Below are positions 1-7,067 of a stretch of DNA of 7,067 nucleotides, in pieces. The notes under the pieces were generated by a model that searched no databases, was not told the DNA's origin, and saw only the letters and a program-made list of their open reading frames with translations. The stretch comes from Anaerolineae bacterium (GTDB taxonomy: Bacteria; Chloroflexota; Anaerolineae; JAFGEY01). Both the position numbers and the translations under genes were made by a program. The stretch's first letter is position 1; every line of letters begins with the position of its first letter. The stretch lies in NCBI GenBank assembly GCA_016929205.1, contig JAFGJF010000360.1:1-7067 (forward strand). Reading direction: 5' to 3'.

Positions 1-420
1 ACCCATGCACACCGGAGAGGCCCGTTCCAGAGCGGCATGGCCCAGCAGATGCTGGCGATCGAGGGTCACAAAATAGTCGACACGAGCGAGGACGGCAGCG
101 GCAAAAACCGAGGCATCGGGCGCATAGAGGATGTAATCATACCAGCGCTCGGCTTCTTCTCGCGCTGGCGTGGGCACGACGCGACACCGCGCGCGGTCGA
201 GTAAAAGCGCCAGGTGTCCCAGCACGTCCGGCGCTTTACGCCGCAGCGCACGTTCGATCTCGGCCAGGACCTGGGCGCTGATCACCAGGTCGATCAACCC
301 ACCCTCGGCCAATTTGTGCAGCATTCGCGCCCCGCCGGTATCGGAAAAAATGCCGGCAAAAAGCGCGCTGGCATCCAGAAAGAAACTAACTCTCGGAGGA
401 ACAGGATTCGTTGTAGACAC
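1..420 (-). CDS. PIN-domain toxin (VapC-like ribonuclease), 3' end outside window
   Basis: Probable endoribonuclease toxin of a type II toxin-antitoxin pair, acting in the cytoplasm. 140 residues are visible with no stop before the window edge; PIN toxins are usually about 130-150 residues, so little is missing. The frame starts at a GTG (418-420) inside the antitoxin gene, with GAGGAG 7 nt upstream; no ATG fits. The PIN acidic set is present: D16 in FFLDASALF, E54 in VLAEIERAL, D102 in APDASVFAAA and D121 in VTLDR. These are the usual Mg2+-binding positions of the family. The start lies 35 nt inside the end of the antitoxin gene, which suggests translational coupling. The family call is firm. 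That it is an active toxin, and its RNA target, are inference. Confidence 0.85.
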   Translation of the reverse strand, partial: MSTTNPVPPRVSFFLDASALFAGIFSDTGGARMLHKLAEGGLIDLVISAQVLAEIERALRRKAPDVLGHLALLLDRARCRVVPTPAREEAERWYDYILYAPDASVFAAAVLARVDYFVTLDRQHLLGHAALERASPVCMG

Positions 421-664
421 GATCTCGCTCCTCGCGCAGTGCGTGCAGCATCGACTCTAGTGTTTCGCCCTGCGCCTGCAGCGCCTCGCACACGCGGTCT
501 GCCAGCACGTCGATCTCGGAACGGGCCGGCGTAAGTACAAACGTGCCGCCCAGATCGAGCAGGGTCAGGCCATCGCCCTCCTGGATGTGGTAGCGGTCGC
601 GCAGAGGCTTGGGCAGCGTGATCGTGCCCCGTTTGGCGACTTGAACGGACAGGGTATCCACCAT
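386..664 (-). CDS. AbrB/MazE-fold antitoxin (VapB-like)
   Basis: 92-residue DNA-binding antitoxin. The N-terminal half (residues 5-47) is a swapped-hairpin AbrB/SpoVT domain: VAKRGTITLPKPLRDRYHIQ followed by EGDGLTLLD. This is the standard form that binds the operator as a dimer. The C-terminal half (about 50-92) is charged and helical (EALQAQGETLESMLHALREE), as expected for the segment that wraps and blocks the PIN toxin. The ATG at 662-664 has GGGAGAG upstream. It is the first gene of a two-gene unit with the overlapping PIN toxin, behind a consensus promoter at 724-752. In this family the antitoxin, alone or with toxin, represses its own promoter; the TGATCA cluster over the start site is the likely operator. 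Confidence 0.88.
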   Translation of the reverse strand: MVDTLSVQVAKRGTITLPKPLRDRYHIQEGDGLTLLDLGGTFVLTPARSEIDVLADRVCEALQAQGETLESMLHALREERDRVYNESCSSES

Positions 665-694
665 ACTTTCTCTCCCTTTGTTCTGACAATCAGC

Positions 695-721
695 TGATCA
701 GGTGATCAGGATATCTGATCA
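695..721 (-). promoter_or_regulatory. TGATCA repeat cluster, likely antitoxin operator
   Basis: TGATCA occurs three times, at 695-700, 703-708 and 716-721, with further GATC/CTGAT half copies around. The cluster covers the predicted transcription start (about 717) and the beginning of the leader of the toxin-antitoxin unit, so a protein bound here would block transcription. AbrB-type antitoxins usually autoregulate, so this is the best operator candidate; binding is inferred. Confidence 0.6.
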
Positions 722-723
722 TC

Positions 724-752
724 AGTATATCCGATCTCGTCGCCTGTGTCAA
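724..752 (-). promoter_or_regulatory. Consensus promoter of the toxin-antitoxin unit
   Basis: On the minus strand, TTGACA (747-752) and TATACT (724-729) are separated by exactly 17 nt. Predicted start is near 717, leaving a leader of about 50 nt before the antitoxin ATG. Confidence 0.8.
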
Positions 753-826
753 GACAGCGTTGGGCCTCGCCCATTCTGGCACAAGCGGCACATGTCGCCT
801 CTGTAGCGCATCTTTCCTTTTCGTAC

Positions 827-832
827 TATAAT
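827..832 (+). promoter_or_regulatory. Candidate -10 box for the pRiA4b ORF-3-like gene
   Basis: A perfect TATAAT lies 59 nt upstream of the ATG at 892. No convincing -35 hexamer is found at 16-18 nt spacing, so this is either a weak or an activator-dependent promoter, or a chance match. Confidence 0.4.
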
Positions 833-891
833 CATCAACGACACAATCCTGAAAATCCTGACACCTGTTTATTCACAGAAAGGAGAGCACC

Positions 892-1443
892 ATGTCCGCC
901 GTTTCGATTTACCAGATCAAGATCACCTTGAGCGGCAGCAAGCCACCGATCTGGCGACGCGTTCTCGTGCGCGGCGACACCACGCTGGGCAAACTGCACG
1001 ACATCATCCAGGCAGTGATGGGCTGGCTTGATTATCACCTGCACCTGTTCACCATAGATGGGGTGCACTTTGGCGTCCCGTCGCCGGACGACTGGGAGCC
1101 GGTGCTGGACGAGCGCAAGATCAGGCTCGATCGGATCGTGCCCGGCGAGGGAACCAAGTTCATCTACGAATACGACTTTGGCGACAGTTGGGATCACGTG
1201 CTGCTGGTGGAGAAAATCATGCCCTCGGAACAGGGCGTCGCCTACCCGGCGTGCATCAAAGGCCGGCGCGCCTGCCCGCCCGAGGACGTGGGTGGCATTT
1301 GGGGATATTATGGTTTCCTGGAAGCAATCCAGGATCCTGGCCACCCCGAACACGACGACTATCTGGAGTGGATCGGCGGCGAATTTGATCCCGAACGGTT
1401 CGACCTGGATGAAACCGATGCCGCCTTGCAGCGACTACGTTGA
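892..1443 (+). CDS. pRiA4b ORF-3-like family protein
   Basis: 183-residue soluble protein of the family named after ORF-3 of plasmid pRiA4b. Its molecular role is not established. Family hallmarks run the full length: YQIKITLSGSKPPIWRRVLV at the N-terminus (residues 6-25), TLGKLHDIIQAVMGW (31-45), HLHLFTIDGVHFG, then FIYEYDFGDSWDHVLLVEKI (about 89-108), and a C-terminal block with YPACIKGRRACPPEDVGG and GFLEAIQDPGHPEHDDYLEW. Two cysteines and several Asp/Glu/His in the last block are typical. The ATG at 892 has AGGAG 7 nt upstream. It is transcribed alone, divergently from the toxin-antitoxin unit. Family members often occur on mobile DNA or beside toxin-antitoxin genes, which fits the neighbour but proves nothing. 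Confidence 0.93.
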   Translation: MSAVSIYQIKITLSGSKPPIWRRVLVRGDTTLGKLHDIIQAVMGWLDYHLHLFTIDGVHFGVPSPDDWEPVLDERKIRLDRIVPGEGTKFIYEYDFGDSWDHVLLVEKIMPSEQGVAYPACIKGRRACPPEDVGGIWGYYGFLEAIQDPGHPEHDDYLEWIGGEFDPERFDLDETDAALQRLR

Positions 1444-1582
1444 GCCAAGGGACGCCGATCTCGCCGCGCCCAGGTAGATGCTTGTATACAAACTCATTCC
1501 CACCTGTTCCTGCGGCACATCCACACAAGTGGGTTCAGTGCCGGTCAGTAAGTACGAACTTGGACGGGCCCCCTGATCGCAA
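1444..1582. other. Intergenic stretch without a supported gene
   Basis: Between the pRiA4b ORF-3-like gene and the sulfatase promoter I see no credible coding frame, RNA gene or strong terminator hairpin. A short frame from 1478 to 1576 is discussed under rejected items. Confidence 0.5.
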
Positions 1583-1611
1583 TTGACAAACCATGATGAG
1601 TCGATTATACT
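1583..1611 (+). promoter_or_regulatory. Consensus promoter of the sulfatase gene
   Basis: TTGACA (1583-1588) and TATACT (1606-1611) with a 17-nt spacer; predicted start near 1618, about 70 nt before the ATG at 1688. This placement also shows that the longer open frame beginning at the TTG of the -35 box is not the protein start. Confidence 0.8.
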
Positions 1612-1687
1612 CACCAGGTACTGCACCACACCACGCACACACGGGTTAGCTTACAAGAAGACAATTGCACGTTTGAAGGGAGAAATT

Positions 1688-3100
1688 ATGCGCACCCTAC
1701 AGCCAAGCCGCCCCAACATCCTCTTTTTCTTTACCGATGACCAGCGCTTTGACACGCTCGGGGCGCTGGGAAACCAGGCCATCTCGACGCCGACCATGGA
1801 TTCGTGGATCCACCAGGGCACGACCTTTACCCACGCCCACATCATGGGCGGCACGTCAGGCGCGGTGTGCATGCCCAGCCGGGCGATGTTGATGACCGGG
1901 CGCACACTGTTTCACCTCGAACGGGAAGGACAAGCCATCCCCGCCGCGCACGTGCTGCTGGGAGAGACGCTGCGGCGAGCGGGGTATCGTACCTTTGGCA
2001 CGGGCAAGTGGCACAACGGCCCGCCATCGTACGCGCGCAGTTTCACCGACGGAGCCGAGATCTTTTTTGGGGGGATGGAGGATCATTGGAACGTGCCGGC
2101 CTGCGACTTTGACCCAACCGGCCGGTACGACCTGGCCTGCCCGATCGTCAAGGACCCATATTATTCCAACGAGGTCACCTACCGGCGCTGCGATCACGTC
2201 ACCGCCGGCAAACATTCGAGCGAGCTGTTTTGCGAGGCGGCGATCGACTTTTTGGACGGGTACGATGCCGGTGCGCCCTTTTTTATGTACCTGTCGTTTA
2301 TGGCCCCGCACGACCCACGCACGATGCCCAAGACATACCTGGACATGTACGATCCGGACGCGATCGCCCTGCCGCCCAATTTTATGCCAGAGCACCCCTT
2401 TGACAATGGCGAGCTGAACGTGCGCGATGAAAAACTGGCCGCGTGGCCGCGCACGGAAACCGAGATCCGCCGCCACATCGCCGAGTATTATGCCATGATT
2501 ACCCACGCCGACGCCCAGATGGCACGAGTGATGGAAGCATTGACCAGAAACGGGCACGCCGGCAATACAATCGTCATTTTTGCCGGGGACAACGGGCTGG
2601 CTCTGGGTCAGCACGGTCTGATGGGCAAACAAAACATGTACGACCACAGCCTGCGCGTTCCCCTGGTCATGTGCGGCCCCGGCATCCCACAGGGCAAACA
2701 AAGCGATGCCTTTTGTTACCTGTTCGACATCTATCCCACGCTGTGCGATCTGATCGGCATCCCCATCCCCGGTACGGTCGAGGGTAAGAGCCTCGTTCCC
2801 GCTATGCGAAATAATGACCGGATCCGCGAGACGATGTATTTCGCCTACAGAGGTTTGCAGCGCTGCGTGCGTGACGAGCATTACAAGCTGATCGCCTACG
2901 CCGTCGACGGCAAACAGACAACACAGCTTTTTGACATCGAGCGCGATCCGTGGGAGTTGAACACTCTGGCCGGTGACAGCGGCTATGCGGAACAGGTAAG
3001 CCGTTTGAGTGCAGAATTGGTGCGCTGGCGGGATGAGCTGGATGACGAGGCCAGCCCGCACGGACAGCTATTTTGGAGAACGTATAGAGCTGAATCGTGA
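1688..3100 (+). CDS. Sulfatase (formylglycine-type, Cys subclass)
   Basis: 470-residue sulfatase of the alkaline-phosphatase-like superfamily, hydrolysing a sulfate ester of unknown substrate. N-terminal NILFFFTDDQRFDTLG supplies the metal-binding Asp pair (D17, D18). The signature CMPSRAMLMTGR (C61-R72) contains the Cys converted to formylglycine by FGE or by a radical-SAM enzyme encoded elsewhere. Other active-site features are GTGKWH (K107, H109), APHDPR (H208), and GDNG with LGQHGLMGK (D301, N302, H309, K314). No signal peptide or membrane segment is seen, so a cytoplasmic enzyme acting on an imported sulfated small molecule is likely. The ATG at 1688 is chosen for the AGGGAG 5 nt upstream and because the family core starts 9 residues later. 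It resembles iduronate/choline-sulfatase-like members; substrate is not readable. The same frame is open upstream to the promoter, which is not coding. Confidence 0.93.
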   Translation: MRTLQPSRPNILFFFTDDQRFDTLGALGNQAISTPTMDSWIHQGTTFTHAHIMGGTSGAVCMPSRAMLMTGRTLFHLEREGQAIPAAHVLLGETLRRAGYRTFGTGKWHNGPPSYARSFTDGAEIFFGGMEDHWNVPACDFDPTGRYDLACPIVKDPYYSNEVTYRRCDHVTAGKHSSELFCEAAIDFLDGYDAGAPFFMYLSFMAPHDPRTMPKTYLDMYDPDAIALPPNFMPEHPFDNGELNVRDEKLAAWPRTETEIRRHIAEYYAMITHADAQMARVMEALTRNGHAGNTIVIFAGDNGLALGQHGLMGKQNMYDHSLRVPLVMCGPGIPQGKQSDAFCYLFDIYPTLCDLIGIPIPGTVEGKSLVPAMRNNDRIRETMYFAYRGLQRCVRDEHYKLIAYAVDGKQTTQLFDIERDPWELNTLAGDSGYAEQVSRLSAELVRWRDELDDEASPHGQLFWRTYRAES

Positions 3101-3120
3101 TCCGGCACAACAAGCACGAC

Positions 3121-3154
3121 AAAAAAAACTAGCCCACACGTTGTGGGCTAGTTT
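3121..3154. terminator. Intrinsic terminator between converging transcripts
   Basis: A 13-bp perfect stem (3126-3138 pairing with 3142-3154, core CTAGCCCACA / TGTGGGCTAG) closes a 3-nt loop. Read on the minus strand it is followed by eight U (3121-3128), a strong rho-independent terminator for the redox operon. On the plus strand the tail is weaker (TTTGATCGTTT) but can serve the sulfatase, whose stop is at 3100. Confidence 0.9.
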
Positions 3155-3165
3155 GATCGTTTGAC

Positions 3166-3182
3166 GAGAACCACCGGTTCTC
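3166..3182 (-). promoter_or_regulatory. SECIS-like hairpin downstream of the FmdB-like UGA
   Basis: The mRNA forms GAGAACC-GGU-GGUUCUC, a perfect 7-bp stem with a GGU loop starting 24 nt after the UGA at 3199-3201. A G in the first two loop positions and a loop roughly 16-37 nt after UGA are the accepted features of bacterial SECIS elements. The stem overlaps the final stop codon (3181-3183), so protein coding does not explain it. No U-run follows in either direction, and the terminator is a separate hairpin. Confidence 0.7.
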
Positions 3183-3402
3183 AGTTGCGGCGAATCCCTC
3201 AACCGGAAGGGCCGCAGCCCGCCGCAGCGCTGCTTGCACCACTGCCGGCGCCGTTGGCAACCGAACAACAAACCGAGAGCGCCTTTTTTACGTCCTCTGC
3301 ACCGCACTGTGGGCATTGCAGATTTGTCTTGCGACGGCTCGAAAGGACCAGCTTTTCAAATTTGGCGCCGCAGTTCTGGCACACGTATTCAAAAATGGGC
3401 AT
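3181..3402 (-). CDS. FmdB-like zinc-ribbon protein with C-terminal selenocysteine (UGA read-through)
   Basis: 73 residues including a predicted selenocysteine. The N-terminus MPIFEYVCQNCGAKFEKL is the standard FmdB-family start; C8, C11, C30 and C33 form the zinc ribbon. Then come C45-C46 and a flexible Gly/Ala/Ser linker. The tail AAGCGPSG is followed by TGA (3199-3201), then GIRRN and a second TGA (3181-3183). FmdB-family tails often end in a CGxxGCG-like Cys cluster, so the UGA falls where a Cys would be expected (position 68). A SECIS-like hairpin follows at 3166-3182. AAGGAG lies 8 nt before the ATG; only 3 nt separate it from the previous gene. It is last in the operon. The function of these small FmdB proteins is not known; redox or metal handling is inferred. 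If UGA is not read through, a 67-residue protein ending at 3199 results. Confidence 0.75.
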
Positions 3403-3405
3403 CGC

Positions 3406-3744
3406 CTACGCTCCTTGCTCCTGCTGCAATTCTTCTCTCAACACACCCATTATCCCGTAAGCATCAACGTGACCGGCCATCACCGGTTTCTCGTTGACCA
3501 GGACCAATGGATACGGCCAATAACGCGCCTCTGCCTGTGCGACAACATCGGTAAAATCAGTACGAACCTCGGGTTTAGCCACATCATAATACTCGACGCT
3601 GACGCGATTGCCATAGACGCGCTCGATGTACCCCTTTACCAATTGTGTGGTCTCCGCCGAAGACCGGCGAGGGCCTCAACCCCGGGTACAAACTTCTGCC
3701 TGACTGTGTCCCAATACAACAACCTGTGCTAATGCTTCTGCCAT
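3406..3744 (-). CDS. YuzD-like thioredoxin-fold protein with in-frame UGA (predicted selenoprotein, CxxxU)
   Basis: 112 residues including predicted selenocysteine U23. The ATG at 3742-3744 has an excellent GGAGG 5 nt upstream. The frame gives QVVVLGHSQAEVCTRG, TGA (3676-3678), then GPRRSSAETTQLV and the rest of a small thioredoxin-like fold. That fold has a second strand SVEYYDVAK and a Y78-P79 (cis-Pro-like) motif before LVLVNEKPVMAGHVDAYG. From memory it resembles the YuzD/DUF1462 family, where a CxxC precedes a VNLPSSKET-like segment: U23 lines up with the second Cys, with the SS-x-ET spacing kept. The candidate pair is C19 and U23. A SECIS-like hairpin follows at 3649-3665. It is the third gene of the redox operon, 33 nt after the membrane thioredoxin. 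The truncated reading would be 22 residues, useless alone, while the downstream part is well conserved in style. Family name is moderate confidence; the UGA reading is stronger. Confidence 0.75.
3649..3665 (-). promoter_or_regulatory. SECIS-like hairpin downstream of the YuzD-like UGA
   Basis: The mRNA can fold as GGUC, bulged U, UC, loop GGCG, GA, GACC. The loop starts 18 nt after the UGA with two G first, and the upper stem has a bulged U. This closely parallels the E. coli fdhF SECIS layout. A competing fold (CGCCG/CGGCG with loop GUCUU) is also possible and would sit closer to the UGA. The element lies in coding sequence. Confidence 0.6.
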
Positions 3745-3777
3745 TCTATCCTCCACTATGCCACAAAACCCAATACT

Positions 3778-4194
3778 CTATTCATCCAATAATAGCTTGC
3801 TTGCGACCTCGACCGTGTGCTTGCGATCGGGTACGCCCACCTGCACATCCTGGACCTGCCCTACACCATCCAACACGAGCAAAGTAGGAATGCCGCGTAC
3901 GCCATATCGCTGTGCCGCTGCCCTGCCGATGTCGCTCCACACGTCCAGCCTGATCACCTCAATGCGATCGTGCAAGTCCTTTGCGATCCCATCCACGATG
4001 GGTTTTGCCACCAGGCAGGTGCTTCAAGTGTTGCCATAAAACTCGACCACAACGGGCTGCCCGGAAGCAATCGCGGTGTCGAACTCGTCCAGGGAGCCAA
4101 ATTTCGTGCCTTTGGTACGAAGCACCACAAAGGCCCCTACCAGGATCAGGAGCACGAACAGAAACAGCCCATTCTCGCGCACGAATGTTTTCAT
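3778..4194 (-). CDS. Membrane-anchored thioredoxin-like selenoprotein (UxxC) with in-frame UGA
   Basis: 138 residues including predicted selenocysteine U57. One N-terminal hydrophobic segment (about 9-25, GLFLFVLLILVGAFVVL) anchors a thioredoxin domain. The domain reads SGQPVVVEFYGNT, TGA (4024-4026), STC, LVAKPIVDGIAKDL, later VIRLDVWSD, and YGVRGIPTLLVLDG with the cis-Pro P103. The TGA sits exactly at the first Cys of the CxxC, giving U57-S-T-C60. Both sides are in the same frame and both are needed for the fold. A SECIS-like hairpin follows at 3988-4002. The ATG at 4192-4194 has GGTGG 5 nt upstream; a GTG at 4206 is an alternative. It starts 16 nt after the thioredoxin stop. The side of the membrane is unclear, since positive charges flank both ends. 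Likely a high-reactivity thiol/selenol reductase or peroxide/persulfide handling protein. Standard gene finders will split it into 4024-4206 and 3778-4011. Confidence 0.85.
3988..4002 (-). promoter_or_regulatory. SECIS-like hairpin downstream of the thioredoxin-like UGA
   Basis: The mRNA forms CCCAUC-GUG-GAUGGG, a perfect 6-bp stem with a 3-nt loop starting with G, 28 nt after the UGA (4024-4026). Distance, loop size and the leading G match the accepted bacterial SECIS rules. It lies in coding sequence, so selection on protein also acts here. Confidence 0.68.
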
Positions 4195-4210
4195 CCCAGC
4201 CACCACAAAC

Positions 4211-4537
4211 CTAGATGGCGTCGTCGATGAATTTGGCCAAATCGCCCTTGCCCTTCAGACCGACGCTTTTATCCAAAAGCTTGCCACCTTTGAACAAAAG
4301 CAGCGTAGGGATGCTCATGATCCCGTGCTGTCCCGGCGTCTTGGGGTTTTCATCCGTGTTCATTTTGTAAAAGGTAACCTTGCCCTCGTAATCCCCGGCC
4401 AATTCCTCGACAATTGGCGCCAGATTCCGGCAAGGAAAACACCACGGTGCCCAGAAATCAATCAGAACAGGCAGTTTGGATTCCAGAACCTTTGTTTGAA
4501 ACTCGTCATCCTGAAGATGCGCTACCAAGTCACTCAT
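4211..4537 (-). CDS. trxA: Thioredoxin with CFPC active site
   Basis: 108-residue cytoplasmic thioredoxin, the usual family length. LPVLIDFWAPWCFPCRNLAPIVEELA carries the active site C33-F34-P35-C36; F replaces the usual Gly of CGPC, which should change redox potential or partner choice. VTFYKMNTDENP and the cis-Pro P77 in SIPTLLLFKGGK are standard. The ATG at 4535-4537 is chosen because AAGGAG lies just upstream. A TTG 18 nt earlier overlaps that ribosome site and is rejected. First gene of a four-gene operon, followed by three UGA-containing genes, which makes it the likely conventional-thiol partner or reductant of the selenoproteins. A leader of about 170 nt separates it from its promoter near 4714-4742. 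The gene symbol is by family, as several trx copies per genome are common. Confidence 0.95.
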   Translation of the reverse strand: MSDLVAHLQDDEFQTKVLESKLPVLIDFWAPWCFPCRNLAPIVEELAGDYEGKVTFYKMNTDENPKTPGQHGIMSIPTLLLFKGGKLLDKSVGLKGKGDLAKFIDDAI

Positions 4538-4646
4538 ATTTTGCTCCTTTAGCAAGACCTTGACATATCTTTTTTGTAAACCAGGCTAACCTGCTTATTC
4601 CCCATTTTGGAGACAGTCCCCCTCTGAAATCACCCAGTCATACGGC

Positions 4647-4675
4647 TTGACAACATTCACATTCAAGTGTATACT
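4647..4675 (+). promoter_or_regulatory. Consensus promoter of the CsoR-family repressor gene
   Basis: TTGACA (4647-4652), 17-nt spacer, TATACT (4670-4675); predicted start near 4682, directly at the operator. It faces the redox-operon promoter, so the two transcripts begin about 25 nt inside each other. Confidence 0.8.
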
Positions 4676-4681
4676 ATCTAT

Positions 4682-4698
4682 ATACCCGTAGGGGGTAT
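4682..4698. promoter_or_regulatory. CsoR-type operator
   Basis: ATACCC (4682-4687) and GGGTAT (4693-4698) form a perfect inverted repeat around GTAGG. A G/C tract flanked by AT in a short palindrome is the known operator style of CsoR-family repressors. Another GGGTAT follows at 4699-4704, and an ATACCC half site (4729-4734) lies in the spacer of the minus-strand promoter. Located between the two face-to-face -10 boxes, one bound tetramer could silence both genes. Confidence 0.75.
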
Positions 4699-4713
4699 GG
4701 GTATCTGAGAGAC

Positions 4714-4742
4714 AGTATACCACACTTGATACCCTTTGTCAA
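4714..4742 (-). promoter_or_regulatory. Consensus promoter of the thioredoxin-selenoprotein operon
   Basis: On the minus strand TTGACA (4737-4742) and TATACT (4714-4719) with a 17-nt spacer; predicted start near 4707, leaving a leader of about 170 nt. The sequence CAAGTGT...TATACT...TCT is shared with the opposite promoter, making the region a large imperfect inverted repeat around the operator. Confidence 0.8.
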
Positions 4743-4763
4743 GTCACAAATGGGAGGAATACT

Positions 4764-5045
4764 ATCGAAACACAAGAGCAGCCAGGTGAAAAGCAGTTAC
4801 TGGATAGGTTGCGCAGGATTGAAGGACAGATACGCGGCCTGCAACGCATGATCGAAGAACGACGCGACTGCTCCGATACGATTGTCCAGGTCCTGGCCAT
4901 CCGTTCGGCATTGGAACAAGTTGGCGTCAAGCTGCTCGACCAACAGCTTCACAACTGCTTTCCCGATGATGAACTAGCCGGTATAGACCTGGAACCACTC
5001 AAAAAATCACTCCGGATGTGGGTCAAGTTTGGGACCGGATCGTAG
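4764..5045 (+). CDS. CsoR/RcnR-family transcriptional repressor, non-canonical start, CstR-like ligand set
   Basis: 93-residue all-helical repressor (DUF156). LLDRLRRIEGQIRGLQRMIEE (about 12-32) is the family helix-1 signature. C36 (RDCSDTIVQVLAIRSALEQVG) and C65 (QQLHNCF) match the Cys pair of CsoR. The intervening copper ligand His at position 61 is Gln here, with a His at 63 instead. Persulfide-sensing CstR also lacks that His, so copper sensing is doubtful. No ATG, GTG or TTG lies in frame between the promoter and the middle of helix 1. GGGAGG (4752-4757) is followed after 6 nt by ATC (4764), which gives numbering identical to CsoR. The TTG at 4809 would cut into helix 1. Probably represses itself and the divergent redox operon through the operator at 4682-4698. 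Its 3' end overlaps the opposite HisKA gene by 23 bp. Confidence 0.85.
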   Translation: METQEQPGEKQLLDRLRRIEGQIRGLQRMIEERRDCSDTIVQVLAIRSALEQVGVKLLDQQLHNCFPDDELAGIDLEPLKKSLRMWVKFGTGS

Positions 5046-5736
5046 GTATCTGGAACGCCAGCACGAACTCGTTGTCCGACGGCATGTCGATCCAAAACGA
5101 GCCCCTGTACAGGGCAACGCGCTTGTCGGAAACCAGCAATTTGAGGCTCTCATTGTCGATCCGGTGCTCCGGCGATTGCCCTCCAGACCGATATGCTTCT
5201 ACAACACCAGACACGCCAGGCGACAGCGCTTCGGTGGCGGTACCGACAATAGACAAGATGGCATTCGACCTGTCGCTCTCCAACTTGAGCACGATGCGGC
5301 CGGCCTGTACAAAGTGGATGGCTACCGATAAAAGATCGACCAAAAGCTGTTGGATATGGGTTTCTTCTACCTGCACAGAGATCAACAGATCGCTGGATTC
5401 TGATTCGATCTGGATCATGTCGTCAGGGATTCGAGATGCAGCCTGCGAGATGACTTTTTCCACAACTGGTTCCAGGTATACCTGGGCATTGCCTGGAGTC
5501 AAACTGCCCGCTTCGGCTTTTCCCAGGTCGATCACGTTGTTTACCATCTCGAGCATCATCTGCCCATTGGTATAGATGGCCTCCAGGTCTGTGAGCTGCA
5601 TATCGGACAGCGGCCCATCCAGACCCTTGATCATGATGCGCGAGAAACCAATAATGGCATTGAGAGGGCTGCGCAAATCGTGTGCAATGCTGGACAAAAC
5701 GTGATGCGCGATCGGTGAATCTTTTTCTTCAGACAT
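5023..5736 (-). CDS. HisKA-domain histidine-kinase-like protein with degenerate ATPase domain
   Basis: 237-residue soluble protein. The dimerisation/phosphoacceptor domain is intact: HHVLSSIAHDLRSPLNAIIGFS with H19, and the second helix EAIYTNGQMMLEMVNNVIDLGKAEAGSL (about 52-79). The following region has HATPase length and layout but has lost its nucleotide-binding motifs. The N-box is LLVDLLSVAIHFV, where NLLxNAxKFT is expected, and the G1 DxGxG is IVGTATEA. It therefore probably cannot bind ATP by itself. No sensor, transmembrane or receiver domain is present. It could act as a phosphotransfer or dimerisation partner, or as an inhibitor of a true kinase. The ATG at 5734-5736 has GGAGAG 4 nt upstream; a TTG at 5835 would add 33 residues but has no ribosome site. 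The GLDGPL-type HisKA segment recalls Chloroflexota kinases. No partner response regulator is in the window. Confidence 0.85.
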   Translation of the reverse strand: MSEEKDSPIAHHVLSSIAHDLRSPLNAIIGFSRIMIKGLDGPLSDMQLTDLEAIYTNGQMMLEMVNNVIDLGKAEAGSLTPGNAQVYLEPVVEKVISQAASRIPDDMIQIESESSDLLISVQVEETHIQQLLVDLLSVAIHFVQAGRIVLKLESDRSNAILSIVGTATEALSPGVSGVVEAYRSGGQSPEHRIDNESLKLLVSDKRVALYRGSFWIDMPSDNEFVLAFQIPTIRSQT

Positions 5737-5771
5737 GTTGCTCTCCTGCCAATAGAGACCGAACAAACGGT

Positions 5772-5800
5772 CCCAACTCTCGAACTCGTCCCCCAACTCT
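5772..5800. repeat. Two direct repeats of CCCAACTCT, 20 bp apart
   Basis: Copies at 5772-5780 and 5792-5800, start-to-start 20 bp (about two helical turns), with a related CGAACTCG between them. They lie in the leader of the HisKA gene next to an AT-rich TATATATA stretch that may hold its -10. This would suit a regulator binding one DNA face; function is inferred. Confidence 0.4.
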
Positions 5801-5881
5801 ATATATACTTTACCCGTTTTCCGCAAAATCCGCAAGTTGTTTCATTATCGAAACCAGTATGCCCAAAACGTGTTATCGTTC

Positions 5882-5910
5882 TTGGCCAACTCGTACTTGG
5901 GGGGTAATAT
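5882..5910 (+). promoter_or_regulatory. Probable promoter of the GPH transporter gene
   Basis: TTGGCC (5882-5887), 17-nt spacer, TAATAT (5905-5910). Weaker than the four perfect promoters in this window. Predicted start near 5917, about 50 nt before the ATG. The leader contains GGATGAG twice (5921-5927, 5944-5950) and a small CGAGA/TCTCG hairpin (5930-5944), with no clear role. Confidence 0.5.
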
Positions 5911-5965
5911 CCGCATTCAGGGATGAGGGCGAGATCCATTCTCGGATGAGCGCTGGGGAGAATCC

Positions 5966-7067
5966 ATGTCTGAAAAACTGTCCCGTCGTACCAAATTGAT
6001 GTATGGCGTTGGGGATACCGGTTTCAGTCTGACCGGGACGATTATTGGCGCCTATTTTGCTATTTTTTTGACCGACGTGGTCGGCATATCGCCTGCGACC
6101 GCGGCGGCAGCGATCTTTGTAGGGCGCAGTTGGGATTACGTCAACGATCCGCTAATCGGCTACATCTCGGATCGCACGCGAACACGTTGGGGGCGGCGGC
6201 GTCCCTTTTTGCTGTTTGGTTTCCTGCCTTTTGCCCTGGCTTTTTCGATGCTGTGGTGGCGGCCGCCGTTTGACAGCGAACTGGCACTGGCTATCTATTA
6301 CGCCATCGCTTATGTCGTCTATGATGCGGCGGCAACATTTGTCTATATGCCCTACTTTGCCCTCACCCCCGAGCTGACCCTCGACTATGACGAGCGTACC
6401 GCACTCACTTCTTATCGCATGTTTTTTTCCATCCTGGCCAGCCTGATTGCATTCACCGTACCCATCGTCATGGTCAAGTCGTTTTCACCTGCCAACACAT
6501 CGCGCGTGTGGTGGATGGGTGCCGCTTTTGGCCTGGTGAGCGCGCTGCCGCTCCTGATCACGTTTTTCGGCACGCGGGAGCGGCAGATCAATATCGAGCA
6601 GGCCCAACCCAGGCTGCGGGAGTCGATCCAAGCCGCCGTGAAGAACCGCCCCTTTGTCTTTGGCCTGGGGATCATGCTCTTGACCTGGGTCTCCGTCAAC
6701 GTCGTCCAGACAGCGCTGCTCTACTTTGTCCGCTATGTCGCCCAGCGCGAGGCACAGAGCGATCTGATCATGGGCTCCATTTTTGTCACCGCGATCTTGA
6801 CCTTGCCCATTTGGGAGCGGGCAGCACGACGCTGGAACAAAAAATGGGCCTACGTGGCCGGGATCGCCTTCTGGGCCGTGGTGCAGTTGGTGCTGATCAC
6901 CGTCAACGCATCGACCAGCCTGGCACCGATCGTGTTCCTGTGCGTGCTGGCCGGTGTTGGCGTGGCTGCGGCACACGTGCTGCCCTGGTCGATCATCCCC
7001 GATGCGATCGAGTGGGACGAATTGCAGACCGGCGAACGACACGAGGGTATGTTTTACAGCCTGGTGA
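5966..7067 (+). CDS. GPH-family (MelB-like) sugar:cation symporter, 3' end outside window
   Basis: Inner-membrane symporter for a glycoside, pentoside or hexuronide with Na+ or H+. 367 residues are visible of a usual 440-480. KLMYGVGDTGFSLTGTIIG (helix I) leads to VGRSWDYVNDPLIGYISDRT. D57 and D61 there match the two helix-II Asp residues (spacing 4) that form the cation site of MelB. RTRWGRRRPFLLFG is the conserved loop 2-3 motif. Further hydrophobic helices follow, with a cytoplasmic charged loop (TRERQINIEQ... to VKNRPF) at mid-protein. The late family motif PWSIIPDAIEWDELQTGERHEG is present shortly before the window ends. The ATG at 5966 has GGGGAG 5 nt upstream. Divergent from the HisKA gene across about 230 bp. 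Sugar specificity cannot be read; association with the sulfatase in sulfated-sugar use is only a possibility. Confidence 0.92.
   Translation, partial: MSEKLSRRTKLMYGVGDTGFSLTGTIIGAYFAIFLTDVVGISPATAAAAIFVGRSWDYVNDPLIGYISDRTRTRWGRRRPFLLFGFLPFALAFSMLWWRPPFDSELALAIYYAIAYVVYDAAATFVYMPYFALTPELTLDYDERTALTSYRMFFSILASLIAFTVPIVMVKSFSPANTSRVWWMGAAFGLVSALPLLITFFGTRERQINIEQAQPRLRESIQAAVKNRPFVFGLGIMLLTWVSVNVVQTALLYFVRYVAQREAQSDLIMGSIFVTAILTLPIWERAARRWNKKWAYVAGIAFWAVVQLVLITVNASTSLAPIVFLCVLAGVGVAAAHVLPWSIIPDAIEWDELQTGERHEGMFYSLV

Follow-up and report, generated by a model that had tools for sequence, protein, structure and literature searches.

How should three successive in-frame TGA codons be read when they fall in adjacent small genes behind an ordinary thioredoxin gene? 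The question is raised by a 7,067-nucleotide stretch of DNA from an Anaerolineae bacterium of the Chloroflexota (contig JAFGJF010000360.1, positions 1 to 7,067; hereafter the window). On its minus strand, positions 4537 to 3181 carry, in this order, trxA and genes for a thioredoxin-like protein (TrxU), a DUF1462-like protein and an FmdB-like protein. By sequence count, 16, 33 and 3 nt separate them (the ATG of TrxU lies at 4192-4194). Each of the last three genes has one in-frame TGA within good coding sequence (Table 1). A preliminary description of the window, made from its letters alone, had proposed three consecutive selenoproteins behind a thioredoxin, together with a divergent regulator, and had read the Cys motifs UxxC, CxxxU and CGPSGUG at the TGAs; these elements and motifs are where it had placed them, and the TGA codons are kept in homologues. 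Judging from the sequences, the TGAs almost certainly encode selenocysteine (Sec), and the three conserved codons with their hairpins probably mark three small predicted selenoproteins, likely a selenol branch of the thioredoxin system.

Table 1. Coordinates of the predicted features of the operon and its surroundings, and of sigma factor regions in related loci
Feature	Sequence	Position	Strand	Support
trxA, conventional thioredoxin, WCFPC, first operon gene, stop TAG	window	4211..4537	-	TIGR01068 118.4 bits (cut-off 96.8); PF00085 2.7e-30
TrxU, membrane-anchored thioredoxin-like, predicted UxxC, stop TAG	window	3778..4194	-	PF00085 6e-13
Predicted Sec codon TGA of TrxU (U-S-T-C)	window	4024..4026	-	
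SECIS-type hairpin of TrxU, CCCAUC-GUG-GAUGGG, loop 27 nt past TGA	window	3988..4002	-	also encodes P-I-V-D-G
DUF1462/YuzD-like thioredoxin-fold protein, predicted CxxxU, stop TAG	window	3406..3744	-	PF07315 29.5 bits (cut-off 25)
Predicted Sec codon TGA of DUF1462-like gene (C-T-R-G-U)	window	3676..3678	-	
SECIS-type hairpin of DUF1462-like gene, GGUCUUC-GGC-GGAGACC, loop 17 nt past TGA	window	3649..3665	-	
FmdB-family zinc ribbon, flexible tail CGPSG-U-GIRRN, stop TGA 3181-3183	window	3181..3402	-	TIGR02605 51.1 bits (cut-off 31.3); PF09723 3.1e-15
Predicted Sec codon TGA of FmdB-like gene (CGPSGUG)	window	3199..3201	-	
SECIS-type hairpin of FmdB-like gene, UGAGAACC-GGU-GGUUCUCG, loop 23 nt past Sec TGA	window	3165..3183	-	
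Intrinsic-terminator-like hairpin and T run behind operon	window	3126..3154	-	consensus match only
Sigma-70-like promoter TTGACA-17-TATACT for operon	window	4714..4742	-	consensus match
Sigma-70-like promoter TTGACA-17-TATACT for csoR	window	4647..4675	+	consensus match, same scan
Putative CsoR-type operator-like repeat ATACCCGTAGGGGGTATGGGTAT between the two promoters	window	4682..4704		similar repeat in L001
csoR, divergent CsoR-family repressor, likely ATC start 4764, stop TAG	window	4764..5045	+	PF02583 81.7 bits (cut-off 22.8)
ECF-type sigma factor region	L004	10554-11409		
ECF-type sigma factor region	L007	6882-7463		
ECF-type sigma factor region	L104	4292-5183		
ECF-type sigma factor region	L105	4144-5034		

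In the window, TGA is the normal stop codon of the PRiA4, sulfatase and histidine kinase genes, and the Trp codons of these genes are TGG; a TGA=Trp code (code 4) is thus not behind the in-frame TGAs, and this reading was rejected. The sole full-length close relative of TrxU in the protein databases, P0015, has W at the Sec site, which we take to be a code-4 gene call. This W, the DNA for which was not seen, speaks for sequencing errors, pseudogenes or a TGA=Trp code as the origin of the TGAs. We regard the probability of such an origin as negligible: besides the codon usage of the window, the same TGA is retained across independent genomes, and TGA-free orthologues with DNA in frame over the site have Cys there in 20 of 20 cases (13 TrxU, 7 DUF1462).

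TrxU has a single N-terminal hydrophobic helix, as read from its sequence, and the charges around such one-helix proteins do not decide on which side of the membrane the domain lies. Its NCBIfam matches are all below cut-off; its best database matches begin directly behind the TGA, and the more distant ones are ordinary thioredoxins. A genome scan with an alignment of TrxU pieces found 37 loci, all 37 with TGA at the site, a count biased toward Sec forms because the scan used a peptide pattern later recognised as encoded by the Sec insertion sequence (SECIS). By title, 35 of these loci belong to Chloroflexi/Chloroflexota or subgroups, one to Acidobacteriota and one to Planctomycetaceae; spread outside Chloroflexota (L009, L015; L denotes loci and G genomes) was seen for TrxU only, and the named loci related to the operon as a whole are nearly all from Chloroflexota, with TGA codons mostly kept. 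A pattern-free profile search through 298 genomes of the class of G001 (Anaerolineae) gave 68 TrxU matches in 66 genomes: 53 with one TGA (DNA of 29 read as loci, or 32 with L070-L072), 13 with none, and one each with two TGAs and with TAA, the DNA of these last two not being among that read. Reading the DNA of the 13 TGA-free cases revealed CxxC at the site in every one. We also observed a TrxU subgroup (L017-L018, L020-L032, L035-L037) with a longer N terminus resembling two membrane helices, many of its members having EFQSPYU-like motifs; no FmdB or DUF1462 match was present in the flanks examined.

The DUF1462-like protein scores above the curated cut-off of PF07315 and has a thioredoxin-like fold, which places it in DUF1462, a family assigned to the thioredoxin-like clan in the accessible text of PMC3091736. 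Its structural model (pLDDT 86.6) has as top Foldseek match 1xg8 of S. aureus, to which the profile also aligns (E 5.7e-08) and which has C-A-S-C where the window protein has C-x3-Sec; ArsD and, tied with it, a thioredoxin come second (E 9.5e-4). All three database matches, one of them the window's own, begin behind the TGA, and a scan of genome contigs with the window protein alone found no relative. DUF1462 was detected in 14 of 400 genomes of the phylum, 12 of them with TGA, always at the site, and in 28 of 396 genomes of the class, 18 with TGA, 17 of these at the site. By contrast with these Sec forms, seven orthologues have Cys at the position (L055, L085, L087, L088, L089, L091, L092), those of L087, L089, L091 and L092 being aligned by eye on the [C/U]-x-P motif, since they have CxxC where the window protein has CxxxU; weak matches of 20-29 bits that do not cover the site (G467, G556, G476, G569) were counted as neither, and G013 is frame-shifted at the site. 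In the latter genome (L046 / L090, G013:C6) the TGA motif and hairpin lie off-frame, pointing to an assembly frameshift or a decayed copy. Outside Chloroflexota, DUF1462 was found in two of 247 genomes of the phylum of G009 (Acidobacteriota), both without TGA in matches whose DNA was not read, and in none of 246 genomes of the phylum of G015 (Planctomycetaceae). A separate clade of Sec forms with the motif C[GN]YGUGPRMP (L047-L050, L052-L054) comes from genomes of ~6-7 Mb; selB was found in seven of the seven and tRNA-Sec in six.

The 73-residue FmdB-like protein has the MPxFEYxCxxC...CxxC ribbon and a TIGR02605 score over cut-off, and thus belongs to the FmdB family. Both of its zinc-ribbon CxxC pairs are intact, and the predicted Sec lies in a C-terminal C-x4-U-G tail preceded by a Ser/Gly/Ala-rich stretch. 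From the Sec TGA to the end of the protein there are five codons in the window (stop TGA) and four in L001 (stop TAA), and all 14 database relatives stop directly before the TGA. In nine loci collected with no motif filter, the TGA is followed by Gly (eight loci) or Arg (one) and then, in all nine, by I, L or F; a stop comes within three more codons. Sites of the larger FmdB set had to match U, G/R/K/S and I/L/F/P/V in succession, which conditions the conservation seen there at these two positions. L093 and L096 contain distant FmdB matches without a U tail that are not clear orthologues. As the preliminary description had expected of ordinary annotation, the closest database relatives of all three genes are broken pieces that begin behind the TGA or end before it, with the exception of P0015.

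According to the available part of a recent inventory (PMC13188914), the bacterial SECIS (bSECIS) should show a small loop, located 16-37 nt after the UGA, that has G in its first two positions. We searched for perfect stems of at least 6 bp with a loop of 3-5 nt, G in the first two loop positions and a spacing of 16-37, which as a background are found behind 1667 of 17200 TGAs (9.7%). The preliminary description had drawn a SECIS-like hairpin behind each TGA; such hairpins are present (loops at 27, 17 and 23 nt), are conserved and, for DUF1462 and FmdB, covary. In the first set of homologous sites they were found at 38 of 39 TrxU, 13 of 13 DUF1462 and 9 of 9 FmdB sites, and in a larger set, which includes the first and omits duplicates of the same 62 nt, sites truncated at the end of a locus and those failing the motif expressions, at 59 of 63, 30 of 30 and 25 of 25. 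At Cys orthologue sites the corresponding numbers are 1 of 13 for TrxU and 0 of 7 for DUF1462 (Fisher tests versus U sites, 7e-10 and 1e-7). Thus, the conserved TGAs, each with a conserved hairpin (absent from 19 of the 20 Cys orthologues of TrxU and DUF1462 tested), are predicted to encode Sec. The common TrxU form is CCYRUC-GUN-GAYRGG at spacing 27; full pairing of this stem is expected from codon usage alone in ~4.9% of genes encoding PIVDG. The spacing is 16-17 for DUF1462 and 16-23 in 23 of 25 FmdB sites, and the FmdB hairpin of the window begins at the stop codon and hence lies outside the coding part. Changes on both sides of a stem pair occur at five of seven positions in DUF1462 (12 of 13 sites, one near-duplicate left out) and at six of eight in FmdB (six of nine sites, gap-free on a 3-nt loop); for both families, the numbers of paired cells and of both-side changes and the covariation score exceed at least 494 of 500 shuffles and every slid control. 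Rfam gave no relevant match in the whole window (E up to 1) or in 3150-4800 (E up to 5). Short SECIS-type hairpins are not expected under a single Rfam family, so this null result says little.

The preliminary description had also pointed to the Sec machinery as a check, and in relatives it is borne out: selB or tRNA-Sec is present in nearly all homologue-bearing genomes tested. Among the 37 TrxU genomes, selB scores over cut-off in 33 and tRNA-Sec reaches at least 64 bits in 34; 27 further genomes with the Sec form of DUF1462 have selB in 24 cases, tRNA-Sec in 22 and one or both in 26. The seven genomes with DUF1462 of the Cys form have selB in four and tRNA-Sec in six. selD, with its own TGA, was found in 9 and selA over cut-off in 10 of 12 genomes tested; the selA of G001 is a fragment at the edge of a contig.

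The module recurs across genomes, with differing membership and gene order. L001 is orthologous, with the window's MFS gene, histidine kinase gene and csoR, followed divergently by trxB (404.7 bits, cut-off 343.45), trxA and the Sec forms of TrxU, DUF1462 and FmdB. The three Sec genes are adjacent, in varying order, in the window and in G001, G118, G435, G488 and G462. In G118 a Sec-form protein disulfide oxidoreductase (PDO) gene follows the trio, giving four consecutive Sec genes (L057). In G066 and G158 the Sec forms of FmdB and DUF1462 precede TrxB and a Sec PDO; the loci with TrxB and a TGA-bearing PDO behind are L056 and L058. The in-frame TGA of PDO (TPTUPYCP) lies in genes at ~2980-3657 (-) in L056, from 5371 (+) in L057 and behind 6125 (+) in L058; its Cys counterpart, TPTCPYCP, is found in L103 and L005. 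G468 has a Sec-form DUF1462 gene, a Cys-form PDO gene and OsmC consecutively, and L091 and L092 contain an all-Cys series of two thioredoxin genes and DUF1462. ECF-type sigma factor genes accompany a TrxB gene downstream of TrxU in L004 and L007 and lie behind Cys-form DUF1462 in L104 and L105. These neighbour contexts were read and scored in part. L148 is a mosaic, with TrxU of the Cys form beside FmdB of the Sec form, TrxA and a CsoR-family gene.

Since one unit combines TrxA, and in L001 also TrxB, with two Sec proteins of thioredoxin fold, a thiol-redox role is the most likely one, and we somewhat favour a redox relay. In such a relay, NADPH would reduce thioredoxin reductase and this in turn TrxA, which would pass electrons to the membrane-anchored TrxU (UxxC) and to the DUF1462 protein (CxxxU) with its thioredoxin fold. 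The FmdB-type zinc ribbon could act as a mobile electron arm through its flexible C-terminal Cys-x4-Sec-Gly tail; mammalian thioredoxin reductase uses a C-terminal Gly-Cys-Sec-Gly tail, which offers an analogy. Targets might be thiols that have been oxidised or persulfidated, or reactive species of sulfur and oxygen, and the CsoR-family repressor, with two Cys and no copper His, might sense such stress and free the divergent promoters. Reactive sulfur as the inducer is a tentative suggestion. The thiol relay or persulfide/peroxide defence envisaged in the preliminary description would fit the neighbours seen in relatives (TrxB, TrxA, PDO and OsmC) and the CsoR-family regulator. Sec incorporation, the order of the relay, its substrates and its inducer are what we infer from these data.

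The regulator retains both Cys in the window, with Gln in place of the Cu-ligand His, as also in L001. Among the 13 CsoR-family proteins linked to TrxU, both Cys are present in all, and the His position is Gln in two, Tyr in ten and His in one; of the solved chains of the family that were aligned, the first three have the Cu-ligand His. Because the Cys-His-Cys site is lacking in the window protein and His is found in only one of the 13, a Cu-sensing CsoR was rejected. The kept Cys pair with a mostly lost copper His argues for a thiol-based over a copper signal. Chain 7mq1, with Asn at the His position, is presumably CstR, despite its deposited name csoR. CstR, the persulfide-sensing branch of the family, resembles the window protein in having two Cys, no His ligand and a CsoR-type operator-like repeat, but unlike in CstR systems, no rhodanese, sulfite exporter or SQR gene is among the four operon genes of the window. 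The repeat, composed of ATACC, a stretch of four to five G, and GGTAT, lies in the csoR-trxA gap of the window, flanked by two back-to-back TTGACA-17-TATACT promoters, and in the csoR-trxB gap of L001. At its apparent start the csoR reading frame has no ATG, GTG or TTG; the window and L001 (minus strand, ~8500) share an ATC at an equivalent position, preceded by a good ribosome-binding site, and this is likely a conserved start.

Several observations weigh against the reading as a selenol branch of the thioredoxin system. Single segments behind the TGAs fold no better than shuffled ones (z -1.29, -0.37, -0.71), the minimum-energy fold of the DUF1462 and FmdB segments is another pairing, and the number of further pair types was matched or topped by shuffles in 365 of 500 (DUF1462) and 37 of 500 (FmdB) cases. 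The window segments fold at -14.3, -14.3 and -13.1, with simple hairpin energies of -5.1, -7.4 and -8.8; by the latter measure, the bSECIS limit of -7.5 kcal/mol is passed by 14 of 39 TrxU, 4 of 13 DUF1462 and 8 of 9 FmdB hairpins, as well as by 8% of 1518 background TGAs. As fold energies do not exceed shuffles while the hairpins are kept in homologues, the case for them is phylogenetic, not thermodynamic. G442 carries a Sec-form DUF1462 with neither selB nor tRNA-Sec found, either because its metagenome-assembled genome is incomplete or otherwise. The trio is often split: another 19 genomes keep only two of the three genes side by side (G572, one of these, with TrxU in the Cys form), and the seven C[GN]YGUGPRMP loci have neither Sec-form FmdB nor TrxU in their flanks. 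Of 68 distinct TrxU loci, the window included, only 13 have a CsoR-family gene within ~1.7 kb, so of the dedicated regulator claimed by the preliminary description the divergent csoR stands for the window and L001 and not for most TrxU loci. The order of the relay and the function proposed for the FmdB tail are by analogy only, and the tail of L124 lacks the upstream Cys. Finally, the alternation of Cys and Sec that the preliminary description had suggested checking holds for TrxU (13 Cys forms) and DUF1462 (7), whereas for the FmdB tail site no Cys orthologue was found, the 14 database relatives included. This absence, together with the mere 2-6 codons that follow the TGA (22 distinct tails), would suit a genuine stop codon in FmdB, with Sec confined to TrxU and DUF1462. 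We consider such a stop very improbable in view of the residues kept behind the TGA and the early stop in the nine unfiltered loci, as well as the G-loop hairpin at 25 of 25 sites, with its narrow spacing in 23 and its covarying stem.

Two metal-gene neighbours also count against a thiol-redox role: in L058 (1439-3688) a heavy-metal P-type ATPase gene lies upstream of Sec-form FmdB, and in L101 (3124-4020) Sec-form DUF1462 has an iron permease gene of the EfeU type on its upstream side. They would be explained if the selenoproteins bound soft metals or metalloids (As, Hg, Cu), DUF1462 serving as an ArsD-like chaperone with a Cys-Sec site, the FmdB tail as a second ligand and CsoR as a metal sensor. 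Metal sensing among CsoR-family relatives and the rank of ArsD behind 1xg8 in the Foldseek search agree with this, as does a weak profile alignment (E 0.054) of the C-x-x-G-U-G of DUF1462 with the Cys-rich start of ArsD, which we take to be its metal site. However, the sequence match to ArsD is at chance level, the Cu-ligand His is gone in 12 of 13 linked CsoR-family proteins, and the Cys orthologues of L091 and L092 follow two thioredoxins. Moreover, TrxB, TrxA, PDO or OsmC adjoin in more of the scored loci, a comparison made with no systematic search for metal-resistance genes. Metal binding as the main role therefore appears unlikely to us. A cluster for selenium supply or homeostasis, for example delivery to SelD, rather than for general redox defence, is less probable still. 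Three to four Sec genes are clustered, and the available part of PMC13188914 names the glutathione and thioredoxin systems among proposed routes of selenium to SelD. On the other side, the five genomes that keep the trio together have selB on a different contig from the module (no search for sel genes was made within module contexts), TrxU and DUF1462 both have Cys orthologues, and G496 has Cys-form DUF1462 with no selB or tRNA-Sec found.

We return to the thiol-redox reading and its relation to known selenoproteins. In its available part, the 2026 inventory (PMC13188914) has 119 selenoprotein families or subfamilies and gives FmdB as UxxU only; neither DUF1462/YuzD nor a C-terminal Sec site in FmdB appears there. 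The accessible texts of PMC2398784 and PMC9312934 describe the FmdB Sec motif as CxxU or U/CxxU, and those of PMC4807772 and PMC11227280 use FmdB for formylmethanofuran dehydrogenase. No selenoprotein of the DUF1462/YuzD family was found in the open-licence papers searched, and no such operon by title among open-licence papers on selenoproteins of Chloroflexota or Anaerolineae. The operon thus appears, on the strength of its predicted proteins, to hold two new kinds of Sec site, in DUF1462 and in the FmdB tail. The FmdB selenoprotein of the Global Ocean Sampling data (PMC2398784) belongs to the same zinc-ribbon family (TIGR02605), but its Sec is in CxxU/UxxU (two sequences), whereas that of the window protein is in the C-terminal tail. 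Similarly, 1xg8 shares family and fold with the DUF1462 protein and differs in its C-A-S-C. Thioredoxin selenoproteins (PF00085 UxxC, Table 1 of PMC13188914, as far as available) share with TrxU the Sec at the first active-site Cys position; unlike those listed, TrxU and its kin carry a membrane helix at the N terminus and a SECIS-fixed KPIVDG/KPVVDR behind the active site. PDO (TIGR02187, a Grx-like homologue of the AhpF N terminus) is a known Sec family that lies beside the module with UPYC (L056, L057, L058) and is absent from the window.

For the arrangement itself, the nearest precedents found are the three-selenoprotein operon Tso and SAO with six selenoproteins, which, in the available part of PMC13188914, likewise combine several unrelated Sec genes. 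Their gene families differ: no Tso or Sao model scores over cut-off for the window proteins, the two thioredoxins reach 24.4 and 22.7 bits with the TsoB model NF045694 against a cut-off of 805, and TsoA and TsoC are not among the matches listed. The full proposal is of an undescribed Sec-dependent thioredoxin module of Chloroflexota, in which TrxB and TrxA would feed Sec proteins with two new kinds of Sec site, FmdB would work as a mobile selenol arm, the bacterial equivalent of the mammalian GCUG arm, and have its SECIS behind the coding part, and a CsoR-family protein would act as a thiol-sensing switch; taken as a whole, we regard it as evenly poised.

The DUF1462 and FmdB-tail sites would enlarge the bacterial selenoproteome, and all three genes are easily missed in standard annotation, in which relatives appear as TGA-broken pieces (P0015 excepted). 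Through the module, thioredoxin, TrxB and a redox-type regulator would be tied to several selenoproteins, in a phylum represented here mainly by metagenome-assembled genomes. TrxU offers a natural experiment, in that the hairpin dictates KPIVDG/KPVVDR in Sec forms and the constraint relaxes in Cys forms, and the small size of FmdB makes the proposed selenol-arm mechanism directly testable.

As for the remaining features, the single terminator of the preliminary description corresponds to the one terminator-like hairpin with a T run behind the operon; terminator-like sites in the region number two against 1.6 expected from shuffles, and promoter-like sites in the consensus scan five against 1.2 expected. 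Two FAD proteins near TrxU were considered as known enzymes and rejected: that of L005 has a partial 54-bit match to NF049943 (cut-off 525) as sulfide:quinone reductase, and that of L010 scores 345.4 against a cut-off of 454.45 as mercury(II) reductase. In L004, L104 and L105 the ECF-type sigma factor is accompanied by a small protein that by eye is zf-HC2-like. On the minus strand at positions 1-664 of the window, a PIN-domain-like and an AbrB-like gene resemble, again by eye, a toxin-antitoxin pair.

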